Shown here: piece after piece, positions 6,818 to 25,779 of the stretch
How positions within the stretch are numbered: position 1 is the first letter of the stretch
How the letters are laid out: the number at the start of each line of letters is the position of its first letter
Source of the DNA: Methylacidiphilum caldifontis
GTDB lineage: Bacteria > Verrucomicrobiota > Verrucomicrobiia > Methylacidiphilales > Methylacidiphilaceae
DNA length: 64,000 nt
NCBI RefSeq assembly: GCF_017310505.1
Contig: NZ_CP065957.1
Coordinates: forward strand, 1,922,001 to 1,986,000
Reading direction: 5' to 3'
Position numbers and translations under genes: made by a program
Notes under the pieces: model-generated
What the model was told of the DNA's origin: nothing
What the model saw: only the letters and a program-made list of their open reading frames with translations
The model's database searches: none

Positions 6818-9800
6818 TTAGGTTTGGGCTTCGATGGGTGGGCTGAAGGGACTCTTTTTTTCTTCTGGTTTCTTTTTTTTCATCAGAAGGTAATAAAAGA
6901 CTGGCACAGCCGTTCTTGAAAGGAGGGTGGAAGCGACTTCTCCAGCCATGAGGGATAAAGCCATCCCTTGAAATATTGGATCGAACAGTATGACTGAACT
7001 GCCCACAATAACAGAAGAGGCTGTAAGAAGCATTGGCCTGAAGCGAACAGCACCCGCTTCGATCACTGCCTCTTCGAGTCTATCGCCATGAGCCAGGCGC
7101 AGCTCTATAAAATCAACCAAAATGATCGCATTTCGGACGACTATTCCGGCCCCGGCTATCATTCCAATCATGGAAGTAGCGGTGAAGAACATCCCGGTAA
7201 GCCAATGAGCGGGCAAAATGCCCACAAGAGATAGGGGAATGGGGAGCATGACTGCCCATGGAGTCCTAAATGATTGGAACCAACCCACGACAAGGATGAA
7301 AATAAGAATTAAGACGATACCAAAAGCTGTACCCAAATCCCTGAATACTTCGTAGGTAACCTGCCATTCCCCGTCCCATTTTACCGCCCAGGAAAGGGGG
7401 TTGTAAGGTTGATGGGTAAAAAGAATTTCCAGTGGCTTACCGTCGGGGGCTGTGATTTTGTTTAGTTTTTTCTGGAAATCAATGATCGCATAAACCGGGC
7501 TACCCACCTCGTTGGTGACATCCGCAAGGACGTAGGACACGGGCATGAGGTTTTTGTGGTATAAAGAATGGTGCTGGTAGCCCATCACTTTGCTGACGAG
7601 GTTATCGATGGGGATGAGCCTCATGAACCTCGAAAGCAAAGAAATAGAAAGAAAAGAACTATCCTGTGATCTATCTTCTTTAGGTAACCTGACGACAATA
7701 TCTACAGGCTCAGGTTCATCCTTTACATGAGCAAGGCCAGGGCTTTGTCCATGTAAAGCGGTTGTGATAGACTGGGAGATAAGCTCTGAAGAAAGACCAT
7801 TCAAGGATGACTTGACAATATCAATATCGAGTCTTTCTAAAGGAAAATCCGCTTCTTCATAGGTGGCTATATCCGTAATGCCTGGCGTTTCTTTTAAAAG
7901 TTGTTCCAGTTTTAAAGCTAACTCTCTTCTTTCCTTTGTTTCAGGACCGTAGACTTCAAGGACGAGCGTGGAAAGGACGGGGGGACCAGGGGGAACTTCT
8001 GCAACTTGGGCATGAGCGCCCTCTGCTTGAGCGATTGTATTTATTTCTTTGCGTATACTTTCGGCAATGTCATGACTTTGTCTTTTTCTTTTATGTTTAT
8101 CCACGAGATTAACTTGAAGGTCTCCTTGATAGGGATTTTCCCGCAAGAAATAATGCCTGACAAGACCGTTAAAATTATAGGGTGAGTGCGTGCCAGCCTG
8201 GATTTCAATGTTTTTAACTTCTTTGAGGTTTAAAGCCACTTTAGCCATTTTATCGAGTACGGCTTCCGTTTTTTCCACGGGAGTGCCTTCGGGCATATTG
8301 AGAATGACCTGGAATTCATTTTTGTTGTCGAAAGGCAGCATTTTGGCGCGAACGACCTTTAAGGGAATCAACGCGACTGATCCAAGCAAAAGAATGGTTA
8401 ATAGCAGAAGGAAAAGAAAGCGTATAAAGGCATTGTATATGAGGGGAGCCATCATGGTTCTATAAATACGGGTGAGAAGATCTTCTCCCTTATCTTTTGT
8501 TTCTTTAATCCCTTTGAGCAGAAGATCGGCCGCCCATGGGGTAACAGACAAGGAAACGAGCATGGAAAAGATCATGGCAGCACTGGCTCCGATAGGAATT
8601 GGACGCATGTAAGGCCCCATGAGACCTCCGACAAAAGCCATCGGTAAAATAGCTGCGATGACCGCCATCGTGGCTAAAACAAGTGGGCTGACAATTTCTT
8701 CCATAGCTCCGATGGTTATAGTGAGTAGACTTTTGCCTCGATTTACAGCCAAATGAATGTGCCTGACGATGTTTTCGATACCCACTATAGGGTCGTCAAC
8801 AAGAATACCGATTGTAAAAATAAGGGCGAAAAGAGTAACTCTATTGATCGTAAAACCGAAAATATAAAAGGTAAGCAGCGTTAGTGCCAGGGTTGTCGGA
8901 ATAGCGATAATCACGACCAGTGCAGCCCTTAATCCTAAGGCAAACCAAATGAGCAAACTCACCCCGACTATGGCAATGCCCATATGCTTCAGCAACTCAT
9001 TGGATTTATCCGCAGCGGTTTCCCCATAATTTCTCGTAATGACATAATGAACGTCGGAAGGAACTATTTTGCCTTCCAATTCCTTGATCGTCCCGAGTAT
9101 TTTATTGGCTAAAAAAGTGGCATTAGATCCCTTTCTTTTCGCCAAGGATAGGGTAACGGCTGAGATTTTTCCCGAAAGTTTTTCCTTTTCATCCCAAGAA
9201 GGACCAGGGATGAGACTGACCTCTTTTTCTTCTTGATCAGGTCCATCGACAATTTGGGCTACATCCTTTAAGTAAACAACCTGCCCTTGACTGACACCGA
9301 CGACAAGATTTTCTAGGTCTTCTTTTTTCTGGATAAAGGAATTGGGTTCAACATCGATGAGTTTGGGTTCAGACTCAATATGCCCTGCGGGCATTCTCAC
9401 ATTGGTTTGAAGGATCAGTTTATAGATTTCTTGGGGAGAAAGAAGTCTTTTGGCGATTTTCGAAGGATCGAAAAAAATCTGGAATTGTCTTTTTCTCCCT
9501 CCGATTAAAGTTGTTTCGGAAACATCTTGAAGGTGATTGATACTATCCCGGAGAGTGGCTACTATTTTCCTTAATTCAATGGGCGAACGTTCAAGGCTAT
9601 AGAAAGTCAGGGCTAAAATAGGAACGTCATCTATGGATCTTGTTTTAATCAAAGGAGTGGTTGCTCCCGGGGGAAGGAAATCAAGGTTAGAATAGACCTT
9701 GGTGTAAAGCTTGATTAAGCTTTTTTCCATATCTTCTCCAACCTTGAATCGGACGATGAAAAGGGCACCGTTTGGGGCAGCCGTCGAATAGACATATTCA

Positions 9801-13059: not shown

Positions 13060-13935
13060 ATGTCTGCTAAACATCCGATCATTTCCATTACGGGTTCTTC
13101 AGGTGCAGGAACAACAACTGTAAAGGTGGCTTTTCAACATATTTTCAGAAGGGAAAAAATTAACGCTTTCATTATCGAAGGCGATGCCTTTCACAGGTAT
13201 GACCGCCAAGAAATGAGGGCCAAAATGGAAGAAATGGAGAAGAAAGGTAATCCTCATTTTAGTCATTTTGGACCTGAAGCTAATCTTTTCGAAGAACTCG
13301 AAGCCCTTTTTAGAGAATATGGGCAAACGGGCAGAGGAAAATACAGGAAATATCTTCACAACGAAGAGGAAGCAGCCCAATATGGACAGCAGCCAGGCAC
13401 TTTTACACCCTGGCAAGATATTCCTGAGGGGACAGATCTGCTTTTTTATGAAGGTCTTCATGGAGCACTGGTTACCGATAAAGTGAATGTTGTGCAGTAC
13501 ACGGACCTAGCGATCGGTATAGTTCCCATTATAAACCTTGAATGGATCCAGAAACTGCATCGAGATAAAAAGGAAAGAGGGTATGCCCATGAGGATGTCG
13601 TGCACACGATTTTGCGAAGAATGCCTGATTACGTGAACTATATCTGTCCTCAATTTTCACATACCGCAGTCAATTTCCAAAGGGTTCCCATAGTTGACAC
13701 TTCCAATCCTTTCATTGCTCGCGATATCCCTTCTCCCGATGAAAGCATGCTTGTGATTCGGTTCCGCAATCCAAAGGGAATCGATTTCCCCTACCTGCTA
13801 TCTATGCTCAAGGATTCCTTTATGTCACGGCCTAATACGATCGTTTGCCCGGGGTCGAAAATGCCATTGGCTATCGAACTTATATTCACCCCGATGATCT
13901 GGCAGCTGATGCATAGAAAAAGACTAAGTTCCTAA
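13060..13935 (+). CDS. prk: Phosphoribulokinase
   Basis: Phosphorylates ribulose 5-phosphate to the Rubisco substrate ribulose 1,5-bisphosphate. The 291-residue protein has the P-loop GSSGAGTTT at residues 12-20 and the characteristic early EGDAFHRYDR, EGLHGALV and RRMPDYVNYI blocks of proteobacterial-type (octameric, NADH-regulated) PRK. The length matches that class rather than the longer plant/cyanobacterial form. It is in an fbp-prk operon. Directly after it come about 150 bases of unassigned sequence and then the IS605 element, so the original downstream neighbour may have been displaced. Confidence 0.96.
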   Translation: MSAKHPIISITGSSGAGTTTVKVAFQHIFRREKINAFIIEGDAFHRYDRQEMRAKMEEMEKKGNPHFSHFGPEANLFEELEALFREYGQTGRGKYRKYLHNEEEAAQYGQQPGTFTPWQDIPEGTDLLFYEGLHGALVTDKVNVVQYTDLAIGIVPIINLEWIQKLHRDKKERGYAHEDVVHTILRRMPDYVNYICPQFSHTAVNFQRVPIVDTSNPFIARDIPSPDESMLVIRFRNPKGIDFPYLLSMLKDSFMSRPNTIVCPGSKMPLAIELIFTPMIWQLMHRKRLSS

Positions 13936-14065
13936 TCCCCGGGATATTTAGAAATCCTTACAACAAGCTTGGTCAGTCTAGGTTACGCAATGGAGTTAAA
14001 AAAAACAAAGATTTCTTGGGCAATTGAGTTGATCGGGGTACAAACTATCAGTTGTAGAATCGGTG

Positions 14066-14575
14066 TCATTTCAAGCAGTTGGACAATGACCAAGTGCGCG
14101 GGCTTGCCCCGCCGCTTGGGGCGGGGAAGGATAGCGCGGACGGCGTAGCCGTCCTTGGTTTCAGTGTGGCGTCTGCAGCTGCCCTGGTGTAATGGCGCAC
14201 GATGGAAATCGGCGCGCCCCCGCAGCTTGAAGCGAAGTACGACGGCGACCACAGCACACCGCGCCAGTACCAGCTCTGAATGTCGGGCCGCTCCTTGCGC
14301 AGCAGCCGGCTGGATACGCCCTTGAGACTGTTCACCAGATTGGAGACGGCGACCTTGGGTGGATATTCCACGAGCAGATGGACGTGATCGTCCTTGCCGT
14401 CCATTTCGACGAGTTGCGCCTCAAAGTCGGCACAGACCTTGGCGAAGATCGTGCGCAGCCGGTTGATGGCGTCGTCGTCGAACACTTTGCGGCGGTATTT
14501 CGTCACGAAGACCAAATGGAGGTGCATCTTGAAGACACAGTGCCGTCCATGTCTTATATCTTGATTTTGCACCAT
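14066..14575 (-). pseudogene. tnpA: IS200/IS605 TnpA transposase, probably frameshifted at the C-terminus
   Basis: HUH single-strand transposase. Residues 1-129 are normal: RHGRHCVFKMHLHLVFVTKY, the HUH motif H64-V-H66 in DDHVHLLVEYPP, WSPSYFASSCGGAP, and the nucleophile tyrosine Y129. After Y129 the family normally reads IEQQxTPH and stops. Here the frame instead reads TRAAADATLKPRTATP and runs on through the left-end hairpins to 14066. A one-base shift after Y129 restores a reading ending in QTPH, with a stop at 14161-14163, so I infer a one-base insertion. The lost helix should carry the glutamine that ligates the metal in IS608 TnpA (Q131), so this copy is probably inactive unless frameshifting rescues it. 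Confidence 0.75.
14107..14154. repeat. Left-end subterminal hairpins of the IS605 element
   Basis: Two hairpins in tandem: CCCCGCC/GGCGGGG at 14107-14126, and GGACGGC-GTA-GCCGTCC at 14138-14154, a perfect 7-bp stem with a 3-base loop. IS200/IS605 TnpA recognises such folded single-strand ends. Confidence 0.65.
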
Positions 14576-14595
14576 AGGCTAAGTATAATGTTTCC

Positions 14596-15876
14596 ATGCT
14601 TATCCGCCAAGCCTTCAAGTACGAATTGATGCCAAACGGCCAGCAAGAGCGGCAAATGTGCCGCTTTGCTGGCTCATGCCGGTTCGTCTACAACAGGGCG
14701 CTGGCGTTGCAGAAGGAGCGCCACGAGCGAGGCGAGAAAAAACTTGGCTACGCTGGGTTGTGCAAGCTGCTCACCGAGTGGCGCAACAGCGCGGAGACGG
14801 CATGGCTCAAGGACGCTCCGGTGCATCCCTTGCAACAATCCCTCAAAGACCTGGAGCGAGCCTACGCCAACTTCTTTGCCAAGTGGGCTGGTTTCCCACG
14901 CTTCAGGAAGAAAGGCACGTCGGATAGCTTCCGCTACCCCGACCCGAAGCAGATCAAGCTGGAGCAGCACAACAACCGCATCTTTCTGCCCAAGCTCGGC
15001 TGGCTGCGCTACCGCAACAGCCGGGAGCTGCTCGGTGTAGTCAAGAACGTCACCGTAAGCCAGTCATGCGGTAAGTGGTACGTGAGCATCCAGGCCGAGC
15101 GGGAGGTGGAGCGTCCCATCCCGCAAGGGGGTACGGTTGGCATCGACATGGGGATCGCCCGCTTCGCTACGCTTTCGGATGGCACGTTCTACGCCCCGCT
15201 CCACAGCTTCAGACGGCATGAGCAACGCTTGGGCAAGGCGCAGCAGTCATTGAGCCGCAGGGTCAGATTCAGCAACAACTGGAGGAAGGCAAAAGCAAGA
15301 GTTGGGCGCATCCACGCACGCATCGCCAATGTCCGCCGCGACTTCCTGCATAAGACCTCGACCGCGATCAGCAAAAACCACGCTGTAGTCTTCGTCGAGG
15401 ACCTGCAGGTACGGAACATGTCCGGGTCGGCGGCGGGCACTGTCGAGGCTCCAGGCCGAAACGTTCGGGCCATGTCCGGCCTGAACAAGTCGATCCTGGA
15501 TCAAGGTTGGTTCGAGTTCGGTCGCCAACTGGACTACAAGCTGGCATGGCGGGGCGGCCGGCTGATCGCCGTGCCGCCGCAGAACACGAGCCGCGCCTGC
15601 CCGTGCTGCGGACACGTTTCGGCGGACAACCGCCAGACGCAGGCCTGGTTTGCGTGTGTGGAATGCGGTTTCGAGGACAACGCCGATGTGGTCGGTGCAA
15701 TCAACATCCTCTCTTGTGGGATGCAAATGTTGCGGGACGAAGGGCAGGGCACGCTGCACGCTTGCAGCGGGATGGCGCAAGCCATCAGCCCGGATGGCCT
15801 GTGGATCGAACCGCGCTGGCGGTCGGAAGCAGGAACCCACCGAAGCGACCCAGGAGAGGCGCCATGCCACCCCTGA
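14596..15876 (+). CDS. tnpB: TnpB, IS605-type RNA-guided nuclease
   Basis: TnpB is the RuvC-type, omega-RNA-guided nuclease of IS605 elements and an ancestor of Cas12. This copy, 426 residues, looks complete. It starts with the standard LIRQAFKYELMPNGQQ, and the RuvC residues are D184 (GIDMGIARF), E268 (FVEDLQVRNM) and D364 (NADVVGAINIL). The zinc ribbon is C335/C338 with C354/C357. Codon use is strongly GC-rich, unlike flanking genes. The C-terminal 35 residues overlap the right-end/omega-RNA region. It can cut the empty site opposite the element and so favour its retention; whether it is expressed here is unknown. Confidence 0.93.
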   Translation: MLIRQAFKYELMPNGQQERQMCRFAGSCRFVYNRALALQKERHERGEKKLGYAGLCKLLTEWRNSAETAWLKDAPVHPLQQSLKDLERAYANFFAKWAGFPRFRKKGTSDSFRYPDPKQIKLEQHNNRIFLPKLGWLRYRNSRELLGVVKNVTVSQSCGKWYVSIQAEREVERPIPQGGTVGIDMGIARFATLSDGTFYAPLHSFRRHEQRLGKAQQSLSRRVRFSNNWRKAKARVGRIHARIANVRRDFLHKTSTAISKNHAVVFVEDLQVRNMSGSAAGTVEAPGRNVRAMSGLNKSILDQGWFEFGRQLDYKLAWRGGRLIAVPPQNTSRACPCCGHVSADNRQTQAWFACVECGFEDNADVVGAINILSCGMQMLRDEGQGTLHACSGMAQAISPDGLWIEPRWRSEAGTHRSDPGEAPCHP

Positions 15877-15939
15877 GCGCCGTAGGAATCTCCGGCCTTC
15901 AGGCCGGGGAGGATGTCAAAACTTTAGGCAGGGGAAAAG
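15760..15939 (+). ncRNA. Predicted omega RNA of TnpB with guide reading into the right flank
   Basis: In IS605 elements the omega RNA covers the 3' part of tnpB and the right end, and its guide is the roughly 16-20 bases just outside the element. Here the right-end hairpin is at 15890-15912 and the guide would start at 15920, inside the ndh fragment. The 5' boundary is a guess; the assignment rests on position and known TnpB biology, not on a covariance search. Confidence 0.4.
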
Positions 15940-16109
15940 CTTTAGTTCAATTCCGTAATTGGGGATTTAATGGTTTTATTGCTTGGATCGTTTGGCTGCT
16001 TATTCATATAATCACACTGATCTCATTTAGAAATCGACTTTCTGTTTTGATCCAATGGGCTTGGGCTTATCTCCGTTTCAAACCTGGAGCAAGACTACTT
16101 TCGAAATGA
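15920..16109 (+). pseudogene. ndh: 3' remnant of a type II NADH dehydrogenase gene
   Basis: Immediately outside the IS right end the frame reads TLGRGKALVQF, then FNGFIAWIVWLLIHIITL, then SFRNRLSVLIQWAWAYL and FKPGARLL, stopping at 16107-16109. This is the C-terminal membrane-anchoring tail of bacterial NDH-2, the single-subunit quinone-reducing NADH dehydrogenase; the family reads TIGR-x-AVAxF, GFxAWLxWLxxH and FRNRLxVLxQWAW. About 62 of roughly 420 residues remain. No matching 5' part is visible to the left of the element, so the loss involved a deletion as well as, or before, the insertion. Confidence 0.75.
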
Positions 16110-16605
16110 CCCGGTCACATAGCCAGATTGCTTACAAATTTAAGGTTATCTTGGAAAAAAATGGTTTAGGCACCAAAAGTGAGAACATAATAGAAAAACA
16201 GATTAAAACCTAGATCTTGATCGTTTTGATAGGCAAAGCTTTCCCTTTTTTGGCTACCTTCTCTTAAATGGCTACGAGAGGATATATAAGCAGAAATAGA
16301 TCCCAACCATTTTATACTTAAGACTTCTTAATTTATTCTTAGGATGATTTAAAACCTCTTATAAAGTAGAAAATGCATTTCAAAAAAATACTATTAATAT
16401 ATTTTATTAATCAATTTTTTATTTTTAATGATATATTTTTCCTGAAAATTATAAATTCCAGAGTAAATAGGATTATTTCCTAAAATTATTCCCTCTTAAA
16501 TGTCTGTTTATCTCATCATATTTTTTAATATTTTTTTATCTAAGAAGAAAAAATAATTAATTGATATTTTGATTCTTTCTCAAAAGAAACAAAGGATTGG
16601 TTCAT
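16110..16605. other. AT-rich intergenic region
   Basis: About 500 bases, extremely AT-rich from 16330 on, with no credible gene or RNA. A Shine-Dalgarno-like AAAGGA at 16591-16596 serves the next gene. Confidence 0.5.
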
Positions 16606-17337
16606 ATGATTTTTCACTTTCATCCTAAAAAAGAAGAAAAGATCGATTTTAAAAATAATAGAATAAATTTTTTGTTTATTCCCCTTTTTCTTTTTGTATG
16701 CCTGGACATGTTACAAAATTCCTTATTTTTAGATTCCCTACAAACAGCTGTAATTTATAACAAGCCTTATCGATTTACCCGAGACACTTTTACTGATAGA
16801 ATTCCTTTTTGGAAACAAGATCTTTTGGAATATAAAGGAAAACCACATCTTAGCTATCTAGAAATAGGGGTCCATGAAGGAAGATCTGCTCTTTGGATGC
16901 TTGAAAATATATTAACAGATCCCACCTCGACTCTTATCATTATTGATGACTTTGGAGAGCACTCCTACGGTACATTTATTTCCAATGTTAATCTTTCTGG
17001 TGAAGCTTACAAGTTTAAGATTTTAAAAGGGTTGTCTACAGAGAAAATTAAGGAAGTACCCTTGAACTCCATCGATATAGCCTATATCGATGGATCAGGC
17101 AGAAGTGACATCATGTTAGCCGATCTGATTAATTCGTGGGATAGGGTAAAACTAGGAGGCTTAATTATTTGCAATCGTTATTCGATGACGAGGCATTTGA
17201 GATGGGCATTGAATGCACCACCAGAGGATTTGGGACCGGTTGGAGCCATAAATACTTTTTTGGATCGTTACAAATCCCGTCTTAAAGTTGTTAGATTTAT
17301 GTCGAACTTTGTTATTGTTCGAAAAATGAGCGAATAA
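16606..17337 (+). CDS. Class I SAM-dependent methyltransferase-like protein (Methyltransf_24 type)
   Basis: 243 residues from ATG 16606, preferred over the TTG at 16597 because AAAGGA lies nine bases before the ATG. The core shows the SAM-binding loop YLEIGVHEGRSALWML, the acidic end of strand 2 (LIIIDDFGEHSYG), IDIAYIDGSG and a VKLGGLIICNRY strand, the order seen in class I methyltransferases that resemble cephalosporin hydroxylase/Methyltransf_24. A hydrophobic N-terminal stretch (NFLFIPLFLFVCLDML) may be a membrane anchor. The substrate is unknown. It stands alone between AT-rich, gene-poor stretches, and its codon use is strongly AT-biased. Homologues often modify glycans, but nothing nearby supports that here. 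Confidence 0.65.
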   Translation: MIFHFHPKKEEKIDFKNNRINFLFIPLFLFVCLDMLQNSLFLDSLQTAVIYNKPYRFTRDTFTDRIPFWKQDLLEYKGKPHLSYLEIGVHEGRSALWMLENILTDPTSTLIIIDDFGEHSYGTFISNVNLSGEAYKFKILKGLSTEKIKEVPLNSIDIAYIDGSGRSDIMLADLINSWDRVKLGGLIICNRYSMTRHLRWALNAPPEDLGPVGAINTFLDRYKSRLKVVRFMSNFVIVRKMSE

Positions 17338-17685
17338 GACTCGTATTTCTCATTAATTATCTATTTATACATTGCCAACTCATAATAATCTTCCTTTTTC
17401 TCTGTATAAGAAAGCGGCAAGTCGGTAAGTGGTCAGATACGATTCAGTGAAAGCTTGGGGTAAGAAAATTTTAGCTATTGATGAATGAATTGTTGATTTA
17501 GGGGTGGGAGGCTTGAGTGGGTTAGATGAGCTATTACAAGACGCGCTCTTTTTCTTTACCCTAAGCTCTTCCTTGAGTGTTCAGCTGGCTTCCAATGGGT
17601 AGGCTACTGCTGCAAAAGATGTCAAAATCCTATAGGATATCTGATCTAAAAAAAACGGTTTTTATGCTCCAATACGAAAAAGAGA
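17338..17685. other. Intergenic region with an imperfect inverted repeat
   Basis: No gene recognised. AGCTTGGGGTAAGAAAA (17452-17468) is nearly the reverse complement of TTTTTCTTTACCCTAAGCT (17549-17567), about 80 bases apart. Its meaning is unknown. Confidence 0.35.
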
Positions 17686-18960
17686 TCAGTCCTCTGTGTC
17701 AGGGAAAAAAACAAGCGGCAATGCAGTAAGCCCCCAATAGATTAGGACTACGATCCACAGGGTAGCTGCAAAAGAAATCACAATGGGCCTTAATGTAGCA
17801 AAAAAATCAGCAGTAAGCCTTAACAAAAGAGAGAGCAAAACTCCAAGTGTGACGATGTCCAGTGGATAAAAGTAAGAAGACAAAAAGGAGGTTCTTCCAG
17901 AAAAACCAAAGACTACTCGAGAACCTACCATTATAATCATCAATCCTCCCCCACCCAGAAAAAAAAGATGAAGCCAGTCGGCCCTTTTTAGTAGAAAAAA
18001 TGAACTTAAAATAAAACCTAATACACTGAAGAGTAGGGCAAGACGGAATCCTCTAGGCACGGTTCCCCTTTTTAATAGATTTATTTTCGTTGGAAAGGCT
18101 ATCAATAAGTAGCCTATAATCGTACAAGCTCGAAGGATTCCTCCGGCAAAGAAGAGTCCCGCGGCTTCAAAAATAAAGCTTAATAAAAGAAAGAAAGCTG
18201 CTGTAGTGGCAAGGAAAGCCCGTTTTATCCATTGTTTTGAAAATTGCAGAGAAGTAGGAAAAATTTCTGGACTTTCTTTATCAAAGACTCGGGGTAAGAA
18301 ATAAGCACTCACTCCAAGGATGGGGAAAAGTGGCAATCCTTGAAAGAGCAAAAGAAGGCTGAAATGATGAAGAAATAGACCGATGGACCGACCAGACTCT
18401 TCTATTGCTTGTAAAAATGTACCTAAAGTAGCCCCTGCAACGCCAAAGAATGGAAAAGAAAAACTGGGTGGAGGATTATCCTTGCGAAAAGGAAAACGGG
18501 AAACAAAGGCGAAAAGAAACAATAATAGGCTAAAACCAAAAGATAAATCCCCGGCAGCGAAAAAACCAAAAAAATGGAATGAATTGGACACAAAAAGAAA
18601 CAATCCAATAAGAAATAAGAGGATAAAGCTCAATGGGGGAACTTCAAGAAGCCTGGGCAGAGAGGTACATAAAAAACCGATGACAAAAGAACCAACAAAA
18701 CCTTCGATCATAATTCGTGGATGACTGAGAGCGGGAACAGAAGGCATCCAACCAAAAGTCGAAAGAGGCCAAAGTAACGTTCCAATAATCCCCCAAAATA
18801 TTCCTAGTGGGAAAAAGAACCGGTATGGCTCTTTTATCCCCAATCGGAAATAATCCCTAAAGCTTAATGCTTTGGTTGGTTCATTCTTTAACCATTGTCT
18901 TTGCATTACTTTTAATATAGGTCCTTTAGACAAAACATTACCGCTGGACAGGACCTTCAT
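17686..18960 (-). CDS. NnrS-family membrane protein (copy 1)
   Basis: NnrS proteins are multi-span haem/copper membrane proteins linked to nitric oxide stress and denitrification. This 424-residue protein is almost wholly hydrophobic, with about 12 predicted helices, starting after the conserved GIKEPYRFFFPLGIFWGIIG block. It includes SHPRIMIEGFVGSFVIGFL, the position where classical NnrS has HxHEMLFGF. The start ATG at 18960 overlaps the nirK 3' end by 23 bases, implying cotranscription with nirK; a second ATG at 18906 is possible and neither has a strong ribosome-binding site. A diverged paralogue lies at 20863-22071. Confidence 0.8.
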   Translation of the reverse strand: MKVLSSGNVLSKGPILKVMQRQWLKNEPTKALSFRDYFRLGIKEPYRFFFPLGIFWGIIGTLLWPLSTFGWMPSVPALSHPRIMIEGFVGSFVIGFLCTSLPRLLEVPPLSFILLFLIGLFLFVSNSFHFFGFFAAGDLSFGFSLLLFLFAFVSRFPFRKDNPPPSFSFPFFGVAGATLGTFLQAIEESGRSIGLFLHHFSLLLLFQGLPLFPILGVSAYFLPRVFDKESPEIFPTSLQFSKQWIKRAFLATTAAFFLLLSFIFEAAGLFFAGGILRACTIIGYLLIAFPTKINLLKRGTVPRGFRLALLFSVLGFILSSFFLLKRADWLHLFFLGGGGLMIIMVGSRVVFGFSGRTSFLSSYFYPLDIVTLGVLLSLLLRLTADFFATLRPIVISFAATLWIVVLIYWGLTALPLVFFPDTED

Positions 18961-19969
18961 GAGATATCGATGGGTTGGCTGAGCCTGTTACAATAAGCTC
19001 TCCTCCAAGACCCTTTTCTTGCCTTGAGAAAAAATGATCGATGATCGGGTATGTCCCGGGAACTTTCGGGACAAATTCGACAAAACCAGATCCTCCAGCG
19101 GGTACAAAGATTGAACAGGTATTTTCTCTCATCGGAGAGAGAGTACTTCCATCCGAAGAAACATGTTCTAACACAGCCCCAAGGAGATGAAGATTGGAAG
19201 AAAAGTTAGGACCAGCATTACCAAAATAAATTCTAATTTTTTCTCCTACCTTTGCATGAAGAGGATGATGTTTTAAAGCATTGACAGACCCGTTGAAGAC
19301 GAAATACTCAGGGGATGAATGAAGTGTTTTAAGGGCATCGGACTCCTGATGGCCACTAGCTCCGAAAGACCCGGCAGTATAAATCTCTCCTTCCATGATA
19401 TAGAATTCATGGTCAACTTTTGGCATGCCTTGGACTGGCTAAATCAGTATAAGACCATACATCCCGTTGGCTACATGTTGAGCTACCATGGGAGTACCGC
19501 AGTGATAGACAGGATTAAGGGCTTTAAAACTAAAAATTTTTTCCTGTCCGGGCATAGCTTGTGTCACGGCTGCCCCTCCAGCAAATCCCCATGCCGCATG
19601 GAAATCTATCGAATGAACCATCAGGTTTTTGGAATCGTTGATAAGATGAATTTCTAAAACGTCTCCAACCCGTGCTCTAAGAAATGGACCTGGAACTTTA
19701 CCATCGAACGTCCAATACCGAAAGGAAGTGTGTTCGGCTAGCTTTCCTTCAATCTCAATTGCATGGAGAGTAATCTTCAGGACCTTTGGGGGCCTCTTTC
19801 CGATAGGAGGAGGGACATCTGCGGGATCTCGGCTAATATCAGGGATATTGTCAGAAGAAGAAACCTCGGCTCCATGGAGGTTTAAAAATTGAATCAGAAA
19901 AAATAAGACAATCGAAGCTAAATAGCTCTTCTTTTTTCTAAAAATGTTTTTCAGTACGAAATGATACAT
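18938..19969 (-). pseudogene. nirK: Copper nitrite reductase NirK interrupted by one in-frame amber codon
   Basis: NirK reduces nitrite to NO in the periplasm. The frame runs 343 codons with a signal peptide (YLASIVLFFLIQFLNLHGA). It carries the type 1 copper ligands H119, C157, H165 and M170, and the type 2 ligands H124 and H156 with D122. After MYGLILI a TAG at 19439-19441 (codon 177) replaces the glutamate normally found in LILVEPEGGLPKV. The same frame then continues without shift as PVQGMPKVDHEFY, supplying the catalytic His (about 261, NLHLLGAV) and the third type 2 ligand (about 312, PIIDHF). The truncated product cannot form the type 2 site. A recent nonsense mutation, sequencing error or readthrough are the options. 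Confidence 0.88.
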
Positions 19970-20862
19970 ATTTTTTCTTACTTTGTTTCAAGAATATAAA
20001 CATTTTTTTAAGTCAAGGTTCCAAATTTAGAATCTTTAATCTTTTCATGTTAAACAACTTTCAAATTATTCATTCTCTTGTAGCGCTGGATACTCTTCCT
20101 GGATCCCATTGTCTTGGTCAAAGAAAAAACAAAACTTTTCCCCTGTTTTCATGCTTTATCCAAAAAATAAACCTAACCGTCCCCCTGTTACAGCAACTGG
20201 CAAAAGCGCTGTGAAATGCCTTCTTCTGTACTCCATGGTTTTTTAATCTCCCGAAAATGCCTCATTGCAACAAAAGCTCGACTGACATCCTTCTTCTTGC
20301 CCATGGGCACGGATTCATGACATAATCACTGATTGCCAAACCCTGCATTGGCTATTGTTGCATACAATACTCTGCCTTTGATACTGGAGCGCCTGAGTAC
20401 TTAAGCAGATCAACTCCTTACTAGGTATATGACGGCCACAATGGACTCACCCTACTACAGTAGGTAGCACTAACTCGATTGCCCTGAGGCCTGCGAAAGC
20501 AAGACTTGGAGTTTGCAGTGGTTGTCGCATTGTGGTTTGAGATAGCTCATTTTTCTTTTGGATTAGCCTCTCTGCAATTGCCGTAGACTTTCGCTTTACA
20601 GCTTATGTATAGGTTTTCTACCCTTGTTCCAATTCTAAAAAGCAAAGCGTGATATCCTAATCAGATTATTTTTTCCGTACTATGTCAATTCTAGTTGTTT
20701 AGCTACCCAAATTCACTTAATCCTGAATGGGCATCTGACGCTCTTCCCTCCGTTCCTTATCCTCAGCATTATGTTAAAATTGATGTAGATCAATTATTTT
20801 TCTCTTTCTTCCCATCATCTGTTGCATGAGGCTTTCTTTCACTATTTTTTTATACTAAGCAG
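19970..20862. other. Gene-free region between nirK and the second nnrS gene
   Basis: About 890 bases with stop codons in all frames and no recognised RNA. Base composition from 20100 to 20600 is more balanced than ordinary intergenic DNA here, which may mean a decayed gene, but I found no protein match by eye. It must contain the divergent promoters of nirK and the nnrS copy. Confidence 0.4.
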
Positions 20863-22071
20863 ATGAATACCGTTGGGCTTTCAAATAAAAACATACGGTT
20901 TTCTGATTATCTGGAACTAACGGGCCGCGAACCCTATCGGCTCCTTTTCCCTCTTGGACTGCTACTAGCTATCTTGGGTGTAAGCCTCTGGCCATTAAAC
21001 CAGCTATCACTCTATTCTGTTAGTCCATCGATTGCTCATCCAAGAATCATGATTCAGGGGTTTGTCAATGCATTTATACTTGGATTTTTAGGAACAGCTT
21101 TCCCCAGGCTTCTTGAGTCTCGACCTCTGACAAAAAAGCAAAGTTGGCTGTTTGCTTGCCTCCTTTTGATTCTTTCAATAGCTCATGCGGCTGGATTCTT
21201 CATGGTTGGAGATCTGCTGTTTGTTCTCTGCTTAGTGAGCTTTGTGTTTTGTCTTTTTAGCCGCTTTACTGCAAGAAAAGCGAATCCTCCGCCCAATTTT
21301 ATTCTTGTGGCTTTAGGAATTTTTTCTGGACTGAGCGGTGGATTGATCGAACTGTTCTCTTTTGTATCTAATCTTCCACCTCCATTGATTATATTGGGAA
21401 GAAGGCTTCTTTTCGAAGGATTTCCCCTTTTACCCATCCTAGGGGTAGGATCCTTTCTTTTGGTCCGATTTCTTAAATACCAGAAAGAAGAGGATTTCAT
21501 CCAATCGGTTCGAAGTATTCGGGAGTGGAAGAAAAAAGCGATCCTTGCTTTTGTCATGGGTATCAGTTTCATTGGAAGTTTTCTTTTGGAATCCTTTCAT
21601 TTTTATAGAACTGCTTCCTTTTTAAAATTATCAGTTTTCTTAGCTTACCTTGTTTTTCCTCTTCTGATGGATCCAAAAGCTTTGCCGCAAAAAAATACCA
21701 TGGCTTTTTGGACAAGGTTTTCTGTTCTTGCTTTTCCTTTTGGATATATTCTTTTGCTTATGGATCCCAATCATGCTTTAGGTTGGTTGCATAACATCTT
21801 TATTCTTGGAGTTGGGCTTCTCATTTTTGTTGTCGCTACCCGGGTTATATTTGGCCACAGTGGGCAACAAGAAAAGTTTGCAGCAAAATTATTGTTTCTT
21901 TCCTGTTCAGCAATCATTTTTTTGGTTGCAACTATTCTTAGAATCGTCGCTGATTTTGACTATTCAAGTCGTCTTCTGGTTCTTTCCTTTTCTTCCCTTC
22001 TTTGGATTGGTGGCTGTGTTCTGTGGGCGTTGTTCGTTCTTCCCTCGGTCCTTATTCCAGATAGAGGCTAG
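20863..22071 (+). CDS. NnrS-family membrane protein (copy 2)
   Basis: 402 residues, polytopic, and clearly a paralogue of the protein at 17686-18960: REPYRLLFPLGLLLAILG against KEPYRFFFPLGIFWGIIG, and AHPRIMIQGFVNAFILGFLG against SHPRIMIEGFVGSFVIGFLC. Both share the closing ATRVIFGHSGQ/GSRVVFGFSGR and the LRIVADF/LRLTADF helix. It is divergent from nirK. Known NnrS proteins help withstand NO-derived stress; with nirK adjacent, a role in NO handling is likely but inferred. No regulator is adjacent. Confidence 0.8.
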   Translation: MNTVGLSNKNIRFSDYLELTGREPYRLLFPLGLLLAILGVSLWPLNQLSLYSVSPSIAHPRIMIQGFVNAFILGFLGTAFPRLLESRPLTKKQSWLFACLLLILSIAHAAGFFMVGDLLFVLCLVSFVFCLFSRFTARKANPPPNFILVALGIFSGLSGGLIELFSFVSNLPPPLIILGRRLLFEGFPLLPILGVGSFLLVRFLKYQKEEDFIQSVRSIREWKKKAILAFVMGISFIGSFLLESFHFYRTASFLKLSVFLAYLVFPLLMDPKALPQKNTMAFWTRFSVLAFPFGYILLLMDPNHALGWLHNIFILGVGLLIFVVATRVIFGHSGQQEKFAAKLLFLSCSAIIFLVATILRIVADFDYSSRLLVLSFSSLLWIGGCVLWALFVLPSVLIPDRG

Positions 22072-22547
22072 CTTTTTTATTTAACGAAACTTAGCCTATA
22101 GAATTTATATATTTCCTTGGTCCTCTATAGAAGTACTTAATTAGCTACATTCTAAATTTGAAGTCTATTTCCAGGAAAACTAACTCTTGTTGTAGTTTTG
22201 ATTAATTTTCACCTTGCCTTATACAAAGATTGCAGCCGTGTTGCTCTCGCCCCTAAAGGCAGTCGACATGAGACTTTGAAAAAGGTAGTTTGGCCATCCT
22301 AATGGCCGTTACGGCAGTAAGCCATCACTTCGTATGTTCTTTATACTCTATACTCTAAGCTTTACTCCAAGTGGACGCATTGAGCATGCTTGGATAAGTG
22401 AATCTTGTTCACCTAAGCAATAGCAACGAGGTGCAATCCGAAAAAAAATCTTCTTTAGGTAACATCCAGCTTAACTTACTACAGCAGTTACTGCCTCTTT
22501 TTTATATACTAGCAAGTAGGCTTTTCAAAGGGAAAGCTTAGAATAAG
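22072..22547. other. Gene-free region after the second nnrS gene
   Basis: About 475 bases, no gene, RNA or clear terminator recognised. Like the 20.1-20.6 kb stretch it is less AT-rich than typical spacers here and could be gene decay. Confidence 0.4.
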
Positions 22548-22925
22548 TTATTTACTTTCACCCCTCTTGCATCGTTTAATGATTTTATCAGCAAAACTGA
22601 TACTTTCTTGAACTTTTTTAGACAGTCCTTCCATTTGATCTTTGTAGTCGCAGACGTTTCGCCATTTCCGCAACCTTCCCAAAGCAGAAGCAATAACTGG
22701 CATTTTTTCCTTTTTGAAGTACTGTCTAAGACGTTCATGATCCTCCCCTTTCCCGGTTGGTTGAAATCCAAGGCAGTCCTTAGCATAATTTCGTGCCAAG
22801 CAGAAGGCCGAGTAATATGCACGACTTACTGCAGAGCGGTAACTTGCTTCCTGTGAAAATATAGTGTCGTGTTTCCCAGAGAGGTACTTGGCTAGTTCTA
22901 AATACTCCCACCAGTCAAATGACAT
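22548..22925 (-). CDS. HEPN-domain protein (UPF0332-like), third gene of a cassette
   Basis: 125 residues from ATG 22925; a TTG nine bases upstream is less likely. The first half has the HEPN helix SYRSAVSRAYYSAFCLARNYA, the second half LRKWRNVCDYKDQMEG. Active HEPN RNases carry R-x4-6-H (often RNxxxH); here the His position is Tyr (RNVCDY), as in the UPF0332-type RxxADY group, so RNase activity is doubtful. HEPN proteins usually work in toxin-antitoxin, CRISPR-linked or abortive-infection systems. It sits five bases after an unknown gene and a TIGR04255 gene, all on the minus strand, so probably one operon. Function unknown. Confidence 0.75.
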   Translation of the reverse strand: MSFDWWEYLELAKYLSGKHDTIFSQEASYRSAVSRAYYSAFCLARNYAKDCLGFQPTGKGEDHERLRQYFKKEKMPVIASALGRLRKWRNVCDYKDQMEGLSKKVQESISFADKIIKRCKRGESK

Positions 22926-22930
22926 CTTTC

Positions 22931-23389
22931 TCAATCCTCATACTCCGTGTCCAACTGGATCCATCCTTTTTTGTCCACAAGATCATTCAAAAATTCTGAT
23001 TCTGCTTTTTCTATCTTCTCAATGATAGATTCATTATATTCTTTGAGCCGAACGGACACCGAAATATATTTGTCATCAATCTCAGGGTCAAAATACACAT
23101 CCATAAACAACCGGGCATTAGGGAAATACTTTTGAGCAGCGGCTACAGCCTTAGGAACAACTTCAATCAATTCGGGAAACTGGGCGAGATATTCTTTTAT
23201 CTTTGCAATATTCCTTAAATGCACCCATTTCTCCAGTAATGCTATTAAATTTTCGACTTCTAACGTAATAGAACTGCGAGATGACTGATCTGCTGGAATA
23301 GAGGCGCTCCAGCTCAAAATGATACCATTATAGCCGCTAAGCTGCCTCAACATCATTTCCGTTTTAGACAAAGTTAAGGTATCAGACAT
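22931..23389 (-). CDS. Uncharacterised protein, middle gene of the TIGR04255/HEPN cassette
   Basis: 152 residues from ATG 23389, two bases after the stop of the TIGR04255 gene; the frame is open further upstream but would overlap that gene. I do not recognise a named family. Visible features are a central helical part (VENLIALLEKWVHLRNIAKIKEYLAQFPEL), then KYFPNARLFMDVYFDPEIDDKYISVSVR, a beta-hairpin-like acidic motif, and a charged helical C-terminus. There is no signal peptide or membrane segment, so it is probably cytoplasmic. The tight spacing to both neighbours suggests the three products act together. Confidence 0.7.
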   Translation of the reverse strand: MSDTLTLSKTEMMLRQLSGYNGIILSWSASIPADQSSRSSITLEVENLIALLEKWVHLRNIAKIKEYLAQFPELIEVVPKAVAAAQKYFPNARLFMDVYFDPEIDDKYISVSVRLKEYNESIIEKIEKAESEFLNDLVDKKGWIQLDTEYED

Positions 23390-23391
23390 TT

Positions 23392-24126
23392 TTAGACGCC
23401 TCCTAAAACAATTCTTAGCTTGTCTGTGATACATCCTTCAAAAACTTCTTCCACTCGATTGTGTGCTTCTTCAACCCAACTGAGTGCGGCAGATACTTCC
23501 AGACCGCGAGAACGAGCAAGGAAGTAATCAATATCGAGAAACACAGCGGTCATTTTTTCATTGCCAATACTTGGCATGAGTTGAACGCGGCAACGATCAC
23601 GGTCTGCTTCGTAAGAGAACTCGCTTCCCACAATAAAAGAAGTCTTCTGCTTTGGTAATTTCTTGCCAATGAATGGATAGAACTCAAGATATTCCTCTAA
23701 CATTGAGTCCTGAGTTGGAAATTCGATTTGGTTAATGTACCGGAGGCCGATTCGTTCTAACCCTCGGATCTCTACGACCTCTTGCAAGCTGCTCCAAGCC
23801 TTCTGAATACGCTGCTTAAACTGCTGCCAATTCGGATAAGGTTTCAGAATATTAACCACAAGTAAGTGGGGTCCAACCTGTATGAGTGTTTTCCTGTCTG
23901 GAGCAAATAAGAAGCTGCGCTCTGAGGTTCCTATTCGTTGCTGCAAGCTTTGAGGCCCCTTGGCCAACTCAAACTCCTGAATCATCCGTTGCTCTCGCTC
24001 TGGATAAGTATCTTTAACCTTTTCATAGAATAGCCCGGGTACAATAAGATCCCAATGAGTATCTTTAGTGAGTCGGAACTCACATAGGGCCTCAATTATG
24101 GGAGTGTTTTTGTAATTTTTCCCCAT
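23392..24126 (-). CDS. TIGR04255-family protein, first gene of the cassette
   Basis: 244 residues beginning GKNYKNTPIIEALCEFRL, which matches the hallmark start of the sporadically distributed TIGR04255 family (YKNPPIVEALCEF). Later family-like blocks include RIGLRYINQIEFP and FLDIDYF. The biochemical function of the family is unknown; members are patchily distributed and often lie beside accessory genes, which is consistent with a defence or conflict role, though unproven. It heads a compact three-gene unit with a two-base and a five-base gap, next to tRNA-Arg and the decayed nirK region. The promoter should lie in the 430 bases upstream. Confidence 0.8.
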   Translation of the reverse strand: MGKNYKNTPIIEALCEFRLTKDTHWDLIVPGLFYEKVKDTYPEREQRMIQEFELAKGPQSLQQRIGTSERSFLFAPDRKTLIQVGPHLLVVNILKPYPNWQQFKQRIQKAWSSLQEVVEIRGLERIGLRYINQIEFPTQDSMLEEYLEFYPFIGKKLPKQKTSFIVGSEFSYEADRDRCRVQLMPSIGNEKMTAVFLDIDYFLARSRGLEVSAALSWVEEAHNRVEEVFEGCITDKLRIVLGGV

Positions 24127-24557
24127 AGCTGGTTACTTTGCTTTGTTTTATTTTAAAAGGCTTAAATTTATTGCTCTTTCTATTTTTGACGTACCAAAGT
24201 CAATAATCAATACCGTTTCTACTACTTTTTTGCTTTCTACCAAAACGACTTGCGTTATTGGGAAGATTCTTGTTAATGATCTAAGAAATTTGATGGTTTG
24301 CTCATACTCTTATATACTTGCTTTTTAAAGATAGCCCTTTAACACGACCTTCGAAAGCATGGATAGATCTAATAGATATTTCTAGGAAATCATTATATTT
24401 TTCTTCTCTGGAGTTGTTGACATGTTTTTTGACATTTTATCACACATATTTTGAAATATTTTTAGACATTTTCCCGTAGTGTTACGTATTATTACGGATT
24501 CACTAAATTCGGCTTAGTTTTCTCTTCTGAAGTTGACTTATGGATTTTTACGAGGAT
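24127..24557. other. Intergenic region between the cassette and tRNA-Arg
   Basis: AT-rich, 431 bases. A 61-codon plus-strand frame at 24143-24328 has no recognisable features and I do not call it. No attachment-site duplication of the tRNA 3' end was seen. Confidence 0.4.
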
Positions 24558-24631
24558 TAGTCCCGGGCGGATTCGAACCGCCGACCCGCGCTTTAGGAAA
24601 GCGCTGCTCTATCCTTCTGAGCTACGGGACC
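24558..24631 (-). tRNA. tRNA-Arg (anticodon CCT)
   Basis: A full cloverleaf of 74 bases: acceptor GGTCCCG/CGGGACT, D stem GCTC/GAGC, anticodon stem GCGCT/AGCGC with loop TTCCTAA (anticodon CCT, reading AGG), T arm GGCGG-TTCGAAT-CCGCC, and discriminator A. The first pair is a G-U wobble. CCA is not encoded. Confidence 0.93.
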
Positions 24632-24765
24632 TGCTTTTTTTATTAAAATATATCAAAAAATAACCTTATTTATTTATATAACCCAATAACGATGCTTTTG
24701 GCGAGGGATTTTCATCCTTTTAATTTAAAACCTAAAAGGAGGCTCTGCGCGGACTCTCCCTTGTT

Positions 24766-25779
24766 TTAAATAATGAGCATGGCATCTCCATAACTATAAA
24801 ACCGGTAGCCCTTCTGAATGGCTTCTTTGTAAGCTTCCTTAAGGAGATCTGTTCCAGCGAAGGCGCAGGTCAAAAGGAACAAACTTGATTTTGGCAGATG
24901 AAAATTTGTGATCATAGCATGGGTATTTTTAAAGGAAAAAGGTGGAAAGATGAATAGATCGGTCCAACCAGATTGAGGTTCAAAATCTTTTATGGTTTCT
25001 AAAACGCGGACGACGGTTGTCCCTACTGCAACAACACGCCTTCCTGGTCTGAATTGTTCTTTGAGGCTTCCATCAATAGAATAGTATTCAGGTTCAAGTC
25101 TTCCAGAAGAAAGTTGTTCAACAGAAAGGGGTCGAAATGTAGCAGGACCAACGTGAAGGGTAATAAAAGCGGTAGAAAAATTTTCTAACATTTCTTTTGA
25201 AAAATGAAGTCCAGCTGTGGGGGCAGCAATGGATCCTAGCTGCTTAGCAAAGACGGTTTGGTAATATTCCCTGTCCTTTTGCTCGATTTCTGCACGGTTT
25301 TTCTTTTTCCTCAGCTTTCGAATATAAGGGGGTAAAGGGGGTAATCCGAGTGATTCCAAGTTTATCTCCTTTTCAAATTCCAAGATGTAATAACCGCCAG
25401 GCAGTTTATCTTTGATTATAACAGGGACATCACAAGGGTTAGTTTGTCCTGCACTTTTAAGATTAATAATCGAGTCCTTTTTGAGATATTTTCCCGGAGA
25501 AGCCATGACTTTCCAACGAAAAGGATCCAAGGCATTGATGAATAGGAAACTTACTTTTTCATCTGCTGATTTGAATAAGGCTGGAATGACCTTTGAGTTA
25601 TTAAGAACCAGAAGATCTTCTTTTGATAGAAAAAGGGAAAGTTCAGAAAAACTATGGTGATAAAACCGTTTGGCTTTTCTATCTACAACCATTAATTTAC
25701 AGGCTTCTCTCTGAATAAGAGGATCAAGAGCAATCAGTTCAGGGGGTAAATCAAAGGAATAATTGTCCAACCAATCCAT
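24766..25779 (-). CDS. queA: S-adenosylmethionine:tRNA ribosyltransferase-isomerase
   Basis: Adds the epoxycyclopentane ring to preQ1 in the wobble position of GUN-decoding tRNAs, using the ribosyl part of SAM, in queuosine synthesis. The 337-residue protein is of normal length and has the typical start (YSFDLPPELIA), AAPTAGLHF, HVGPATFRPL, RRVVAVGTTVVRVLE and the late MITNFHLPKSSLFLL, all QueA hallmarks. It is transcribed alone, divergent from a GntR-type regulator, with tRNA-Arg downstream on the same strand. No riboswitch was recognised upstream. Confidence 0.96.
   Translation of the reverse strand: MDWLDNYSFDLPPELIALDPLIQREACKLMVVDRKAKRFYHHSFSELSLFLSKEDLLVLNNSKVIPALFKSADEKVSFLFINALDPFRWKVMASPGKYLKKDSIINLKSAGQTNPCDVPVIIKDKLPGGYYILEFEKEINLESLGLPPLPPYIRKLRKKKNRAEIEQKDREYYQTVFAKQLGSIAAPTAGLHFSKEMLENFSTAFITLHVGPATFRPLSVEQLSSGRLEPEYYSIDGSLKEQFRPGRRVVAVGTTVVRVLETIKDFEPQSGWTDLFIFPPFSFKNTHAMITNFHLPKSSLFLLTCAFAGTDLLKEAYKEAIQKGYRFYSYGDAMLII

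Follow-up and report, generated by a model that had tools for sequence, protein, structure and literature searches.

The copper nitrite reductase gene (nirK) in the 64,000-nucleotide stretch of DNA analysed here ('the window') is very probably a recently inactivated pseudogene, bearing at least two separate lesions. The ancestral gene would have encoded a working copper nitrite reductase that was probably exported. Three codons have been lost in frame, which takes out part of the strand that carries the His-Cys ligands; and where the first cupredoxin domain ends, a nonsense change to TAG severs the catalytic His, along with the third type 2 copper ligand, from the product. Neither inactivating change occurs in any of 32 aligned relatives and, to judge from the sequence, an active NirK enzyme is presumably not made. 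The genome is most likely that of Methylacidiphilum caldifontis IT6, for which N2O respiration has been demonstrated, and the event is a case of ordinary gene decay in an interesting ecological setting, the host being a heat- and acid-loving, methane-eating bacterium. Four other genomes of the genus were compared: G001 (a 90-contig draft), G002, G003 and G004, the last three of which we take to be those of strain V4, M. fumariolicum SolV and strain Kam1, respectively.

Table 1. Features of the nirK region, in window coordinates.
Feature	Coordinates	Strand	Remarks
nirK (copper nitrite reductase) pseudogene	18938-19969	minus	343 codons + TAA, one interruption
In-frame TAG, codon 177	19439-19441	minus	Glu in 32/32 aligned relatives
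ORF still open from the normal start	19439-19969	minus	176 aa: signal region + first cupredoxin domain
Junction of the three-codon in-frame deletion (between P153 and V154)	19508-19513	minus	immediately before the His156-Cys157 copper ligands
nnrS gene 1	17686-18960	minus	424 aa, uninterrupted; its first 23 bases overlap the nirK end
nnrS gene 2	20863-22071	plus	402 aa, uninterrupted; divergent from nirK
10.6-kb stretch, PRK gene to tRNA-Arg(CCT)	13936-24557		absent from congener G002; holds nirK + both nnrS
IS200/IS605-type insertion (Y1 transposase + OrfB/TnpB)	14066-15876		61% GC
tRNA-Arg (CCT)	24558-24631	minus	right border of the 10.6-kb stretch

The original prediction of one continuous NirK frame, made with no strand given, holds for the minus strand (Table 1). 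When read through the TAG, this frame is a two-domain cupredoxin match to the NirK model TIGR02376 over residues 41-335 (E 1e-73 in a profile search; 248.5 bits, under the curated cut-off of 296.3), and the halves before and after the TAG match the model independently (E 3e-41 and 8e-26, respectively). A chance frame is excluded, as the match covers both halves with all ligands in order. Scanning of NirK segments from Methylacidiphilaceae (the window nirK plus L035, L036, L037, L039 and L040) placed all five uninterrupted segments, with scores of 256-269, below the same cut-off, so that annotation based on TIGR02376 alone could miss this clade. The solved structures with the best sequence match to the frame are the nitrite reductases 2dv6, 6tfd and 6the.

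Codon 177, predicted to be a TAG in place of a family Glu, indeed aligns with Glu in every relative (GAG in 22, GAA in 10). The arrangement of ligands around it was likewise predicted correctly: the alignment places all four type 1 copper ligands (H119, C157, H165, M170), the type 2 ligands H124 and H156 and the catalytic Asp (D122) before the TAG, with H261 (the catalytic His) and H312 (the remaining type 2 ligand) after it, the roles of these residues being those known for the family, placed on invariant alignment columns. The three type 2 His residues and the catalytic Asp and His are thus not united in one product, nor is the frame uninterrupted, given the TAG at codon 177. The 32 relatives derive from 29 loci, minus L005 and L006 (whose contigs, judged by length, are those of G009 and G010a) and the partial L030 and L033, plus seven further nirK loci; L050 (45% identical, with the tripeptide residues discussed below kept, by eye) and more distant homologs were left out too, and the L021 row extends beyond its own terminal stop.

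The gene had been described as clean apart from this single change. That description fits the part 3' of the stop, but is wrong for the gene as a whole, as it overlooked a second lesion upstream, at the copper site. Three residues lost between P153 and V154 are kept in 32/32 relatives, in all of which a Gly-x-Tyr/Phe tripeptide precedes [x]YHC, whereas the window nirK reads ALNP---VYHC; the same three-residue gap appears in both displayed alignments to solved structures. In an AlphaFold2 model of the read-through product, pLDDT falls below 50 at residues 156-161, where no strand is formed, and block means over 151-170 are 50 and 52; the intact control L005 forms its strand (147-152) and reaches block means of 80 and 90 over 151-170 (overall means 75.0 for the read-through model vs 82.3 for the control). 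Both models were built from the same set of 15 sequences, which makes them a weak judge of the deletion, and the control shows a weak spot of its own at 121-124. As modelled, a read-through nirK product would probably have a damaged copper site as well.

Evidence on the age of the loss comes from the pattern of substitution. In a branch model of eight Methylacidiphilaceae genes (312 codons; a custom script, with synonymous change saturated at a branch length of 2.5 and base composition differing between lineages), omega was 0.045 on the IT6 branch vs 0.103 in the background, and omega = 1 was rejected on that branch for the whole gene (p about 3e-13), the 5' part (omega 0.070, p 2e-8) and the 3' part (omega 0.025, p 5e-7). 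The difference between branch and background (IT6 branch lower, p 0.027) could be an artefact of these features of the test. Given the saturation and the compositional difference, only a coarse statement is safe, namely that the IT6 branch experienced purifying selection for most of its length and that the lesions came late. As the gene is otherwise constrained, its loss is recent relative to divergence, and both lesions appear to be recent. The original prediction of a recent loss is therefore upheld on other grounds, namely strong purifying selection in the 3' part and the second lesion; decay of the 3' half, which would mean an older pseudogene, was not seen. The low omega would also fit a nirK still in use, and an in-frame deletion is of a kind tolerable under selection on a working protein, which counts against a pseudogene.

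Of 49 strictly invariant columns, the window nirK departs at two, corresponding to the deletion and the stop and nothing else; among the 32 relatives, 23 depart at none of these columns, eight at one, and L029 at six. Wholesale decay is thus not seen. Columns at least 90% conserved show more change (9/85; seven family controls have 2 to 6 changed of 84-86), and the protein branch leading to the window nirK, measured from the fork that it shares with its two sisters, has roughly double their length (0.43 vs 0.20 and 0.22). From the longer branch and the changed conserved columns, some relaxation before the lesions is possible.

The position of the stop, at the end of domain 1 and after all four type 1 ligands, is what would be expected had the gene undergone domain fission, such that the 176-aa ORF encodes a type 1 copper cupredoxin that stands alone, is exported and is maintained by selection. 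The deletion, however, strikes the His-Cys ligand strand itself, and the severed 3' part is at least as constrained as the 5' part (see the omega values above), which is not as a long-standing truncation predicts; we regard this reading as very improbable.

An assembly or sequencing error concealing an ordinary nirK, an option raised by the original prediction, would agree with the constraint on the remainder of the gene, and only a single genome bears the lesions. Both separate defects would need to be errors, however, and the genome forms a single contig (2,254,698 bases; 99.98% complete). Moreover, 9/9 compared genes flanking the 10.6-kb stretch match their G002 counterparts exactly in length, so that the assembly is not error-ridden in general. 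Assemblies of the PacBio/HGAP type err mostly by single-base indels, rather than by a substitution accompanied by a clean deletion of 9 bases. Given two separate lesions and nine flanking genes of equal length, such an error is unlikely. For IT6, PMC8630023 (in excerpt) names PacBio RSII and Illumina HiSeq as the sequencing platforms and HGAP as the assembler.

Programmed or suppressor-based readthrough of the amber codon, also proposed originally, would still yield full-length NirK, and the frame is indeed open and constrained on either side of the TAG. Yet 0/46 tRNAs above the RF00005 cut-off (from 150 scored of 166 first-look candidates) are read by ARAGORN as carrying a CTA anticodon, and at a 47th, weak RF00005 match ARAGORN finds no tRNA. 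The open frame for RF1 scores 469.5 bits against a cut-off of 423.25, so that no release-factor change is seen at the level of a profile match. TAG also serves as an ordinary stop, ending 5 of 32 long, mostly non-overlapping ORFs hand-picked from the 112 in the window (TAA ends 23, TGA 4), and the copper-site deletion would probably harm the product regardless. Readthrough is accordingly unsupported, and we give it very little credence; inactivation by two lesions remains the preferred reading.

The pseudogene lies within a 10.6-kb stretch whose left border is the end of the PRK gene (13935) and which contains the IS200/IS605-type element, a methyltransferase-like gene, nnrS1, nirK and nnrS2. 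As nnrS1 starts inside the nirK end, the TAG may lower its translation. The divergent nirK/nnrS layout also occurs in G011, a member of another genus (nirK C164:5303-6241 (-), nnrS 7142-7879 (+)). In G002, only 66 bases separate PRK and tRNA-Arg; the distance between PRK and tRNA-Arg-queA is about 1 Mb in both G003 and G004, and the draft G001 has them on different contigs, so that gain here and loss in G002 are indistinguishable. Integration at the tRNA site was considered and is unsupported, as the ends of the stretch share no repeat: the tRNA and positions 13901-14100 have no exact same-strand word of at least 8 bases in common. No direct repeat longer than 20 bases was found in 13800-24800, a Pfam scan of seven ORFs in the stretch revealed no integrase, and plasmids gave no near match (by protein, 402 plasmid records, all <60% identity). 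Downstream of the IS200/IS605-type element, positions 15960-16109 resemble, by eye, the C-terminus of a type II NADH dehydrogenase.

Loss of nirK would have been tolerated if nitrite reduction by NirK was dispensable, and a second, predicted NirK-like protein may be the reason. Its gene (L052, G000:C1:406351-407178) is uninterrupted in this genome, retains all aligned copper ligands and the catalytic Asp and His, and is 32% identical to the window nirK; its 192 bits fall short of the 296.3 that TIGR02376 requires. Counterparts are found in 4/5 genus genomes, this one included, a pattern among strains that suggests the Mfumv2_1120 type. L052 lies about 1.4 kb after another cupredoxin-type match (C1:404222-404941). 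The genome also encodes five PF00115 proteins, one of which (C1:1419368-1420585), with no NCBIfam match, could be a candidate NorB.

Among the five genus genomes, the NosZ propeller domain is found in this one alone. The available sections of PMC11102522 record NosZ in M. caldifontis IT6, describe other Methylacidiphilum species, including M. fumariolicum, as lacking it, show growth of IT6 dependent on N2O, and argue for lateral acquisition of the N2O reductase; the assignment of the genome to IT6 follows from this match. A rather improbable further reading couples this lateral gain with loss of the canonical nirK: the lineage would have become a consumer of N2O in which NO is no longer produced via NirK, and the second, Nitrosomonas-like NirK homolog alone would remain. 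Denitrification genes are patchy from strain to strain in Methylacidiphilum, and gene inventories underlie claims on nitrite tolerance and N2O output, in which the window nirK is not to be counted as functional. A nirK caught soon after inactivation, likely in an isolate that respires N2O at pH 2, illustrates the modularity of the pathway.

No report of a lesion in nirK of Methylacidiphilum or M. caldifontis is announced in the listed titles and abstract openings of the literature on this gene, strain inventories in supplements aside; specifically, none is mentioned in the excerpts of PMC11102522, PMC6688271, PMC8498564, PMC8630023, PMC5623727, PMC2924362, PMC8779874 and PMC7907005. In the accessible text of the first of these, NirK is named twice, in the methods and in a reference title.

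Of the four other genus genomes, G003 has a close nirK; none was found in G001, G002 and G004. This distribution agrees with the strain pattern given in PMC6688271 (in excerpt), where SolV has two putative nitrite reductases, V4 one and Kam1 none. The NirK of SolV (Mfumv2_1973) is a close known counterpart: it shares the clade and domain layout of the window nirK and is 72% identical to it, with all ligands aligned. The G003 copy (L129:11743-13107) is uninterrupted, has 56% GC within a region of 40% GC, and groups with the G011 gene rather than with the window nirK. Its setting differs too, as nirK lies about 17 kb downstream of PRK on the same strand in SolV and 5 kb downstream on the opposite strand here, and nirK is the sole blastn match between the 20-kb nirK region of G003 and positions 10-30 kb of the window. 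The high GC and the grouping with G011 suggest that the G003 nirK was a separate, later acquisition.

A known parallel for the loss itself is Neisseria meningitidis, in which inactivation or absence of nirK (aniA) recurs within one species under relaxed selection: according to the sections available, nirK was not detected in 7/26 strains, and a frameshift and an inactivating missense change were present in 5/23 and 8/31, respectively (PMC2924362). The meningococcal defects cited there are frameshifts and missense changes in another lineage, whereas the M. caldifontis gene carries a nonsense codon together with an in-frame deletion.
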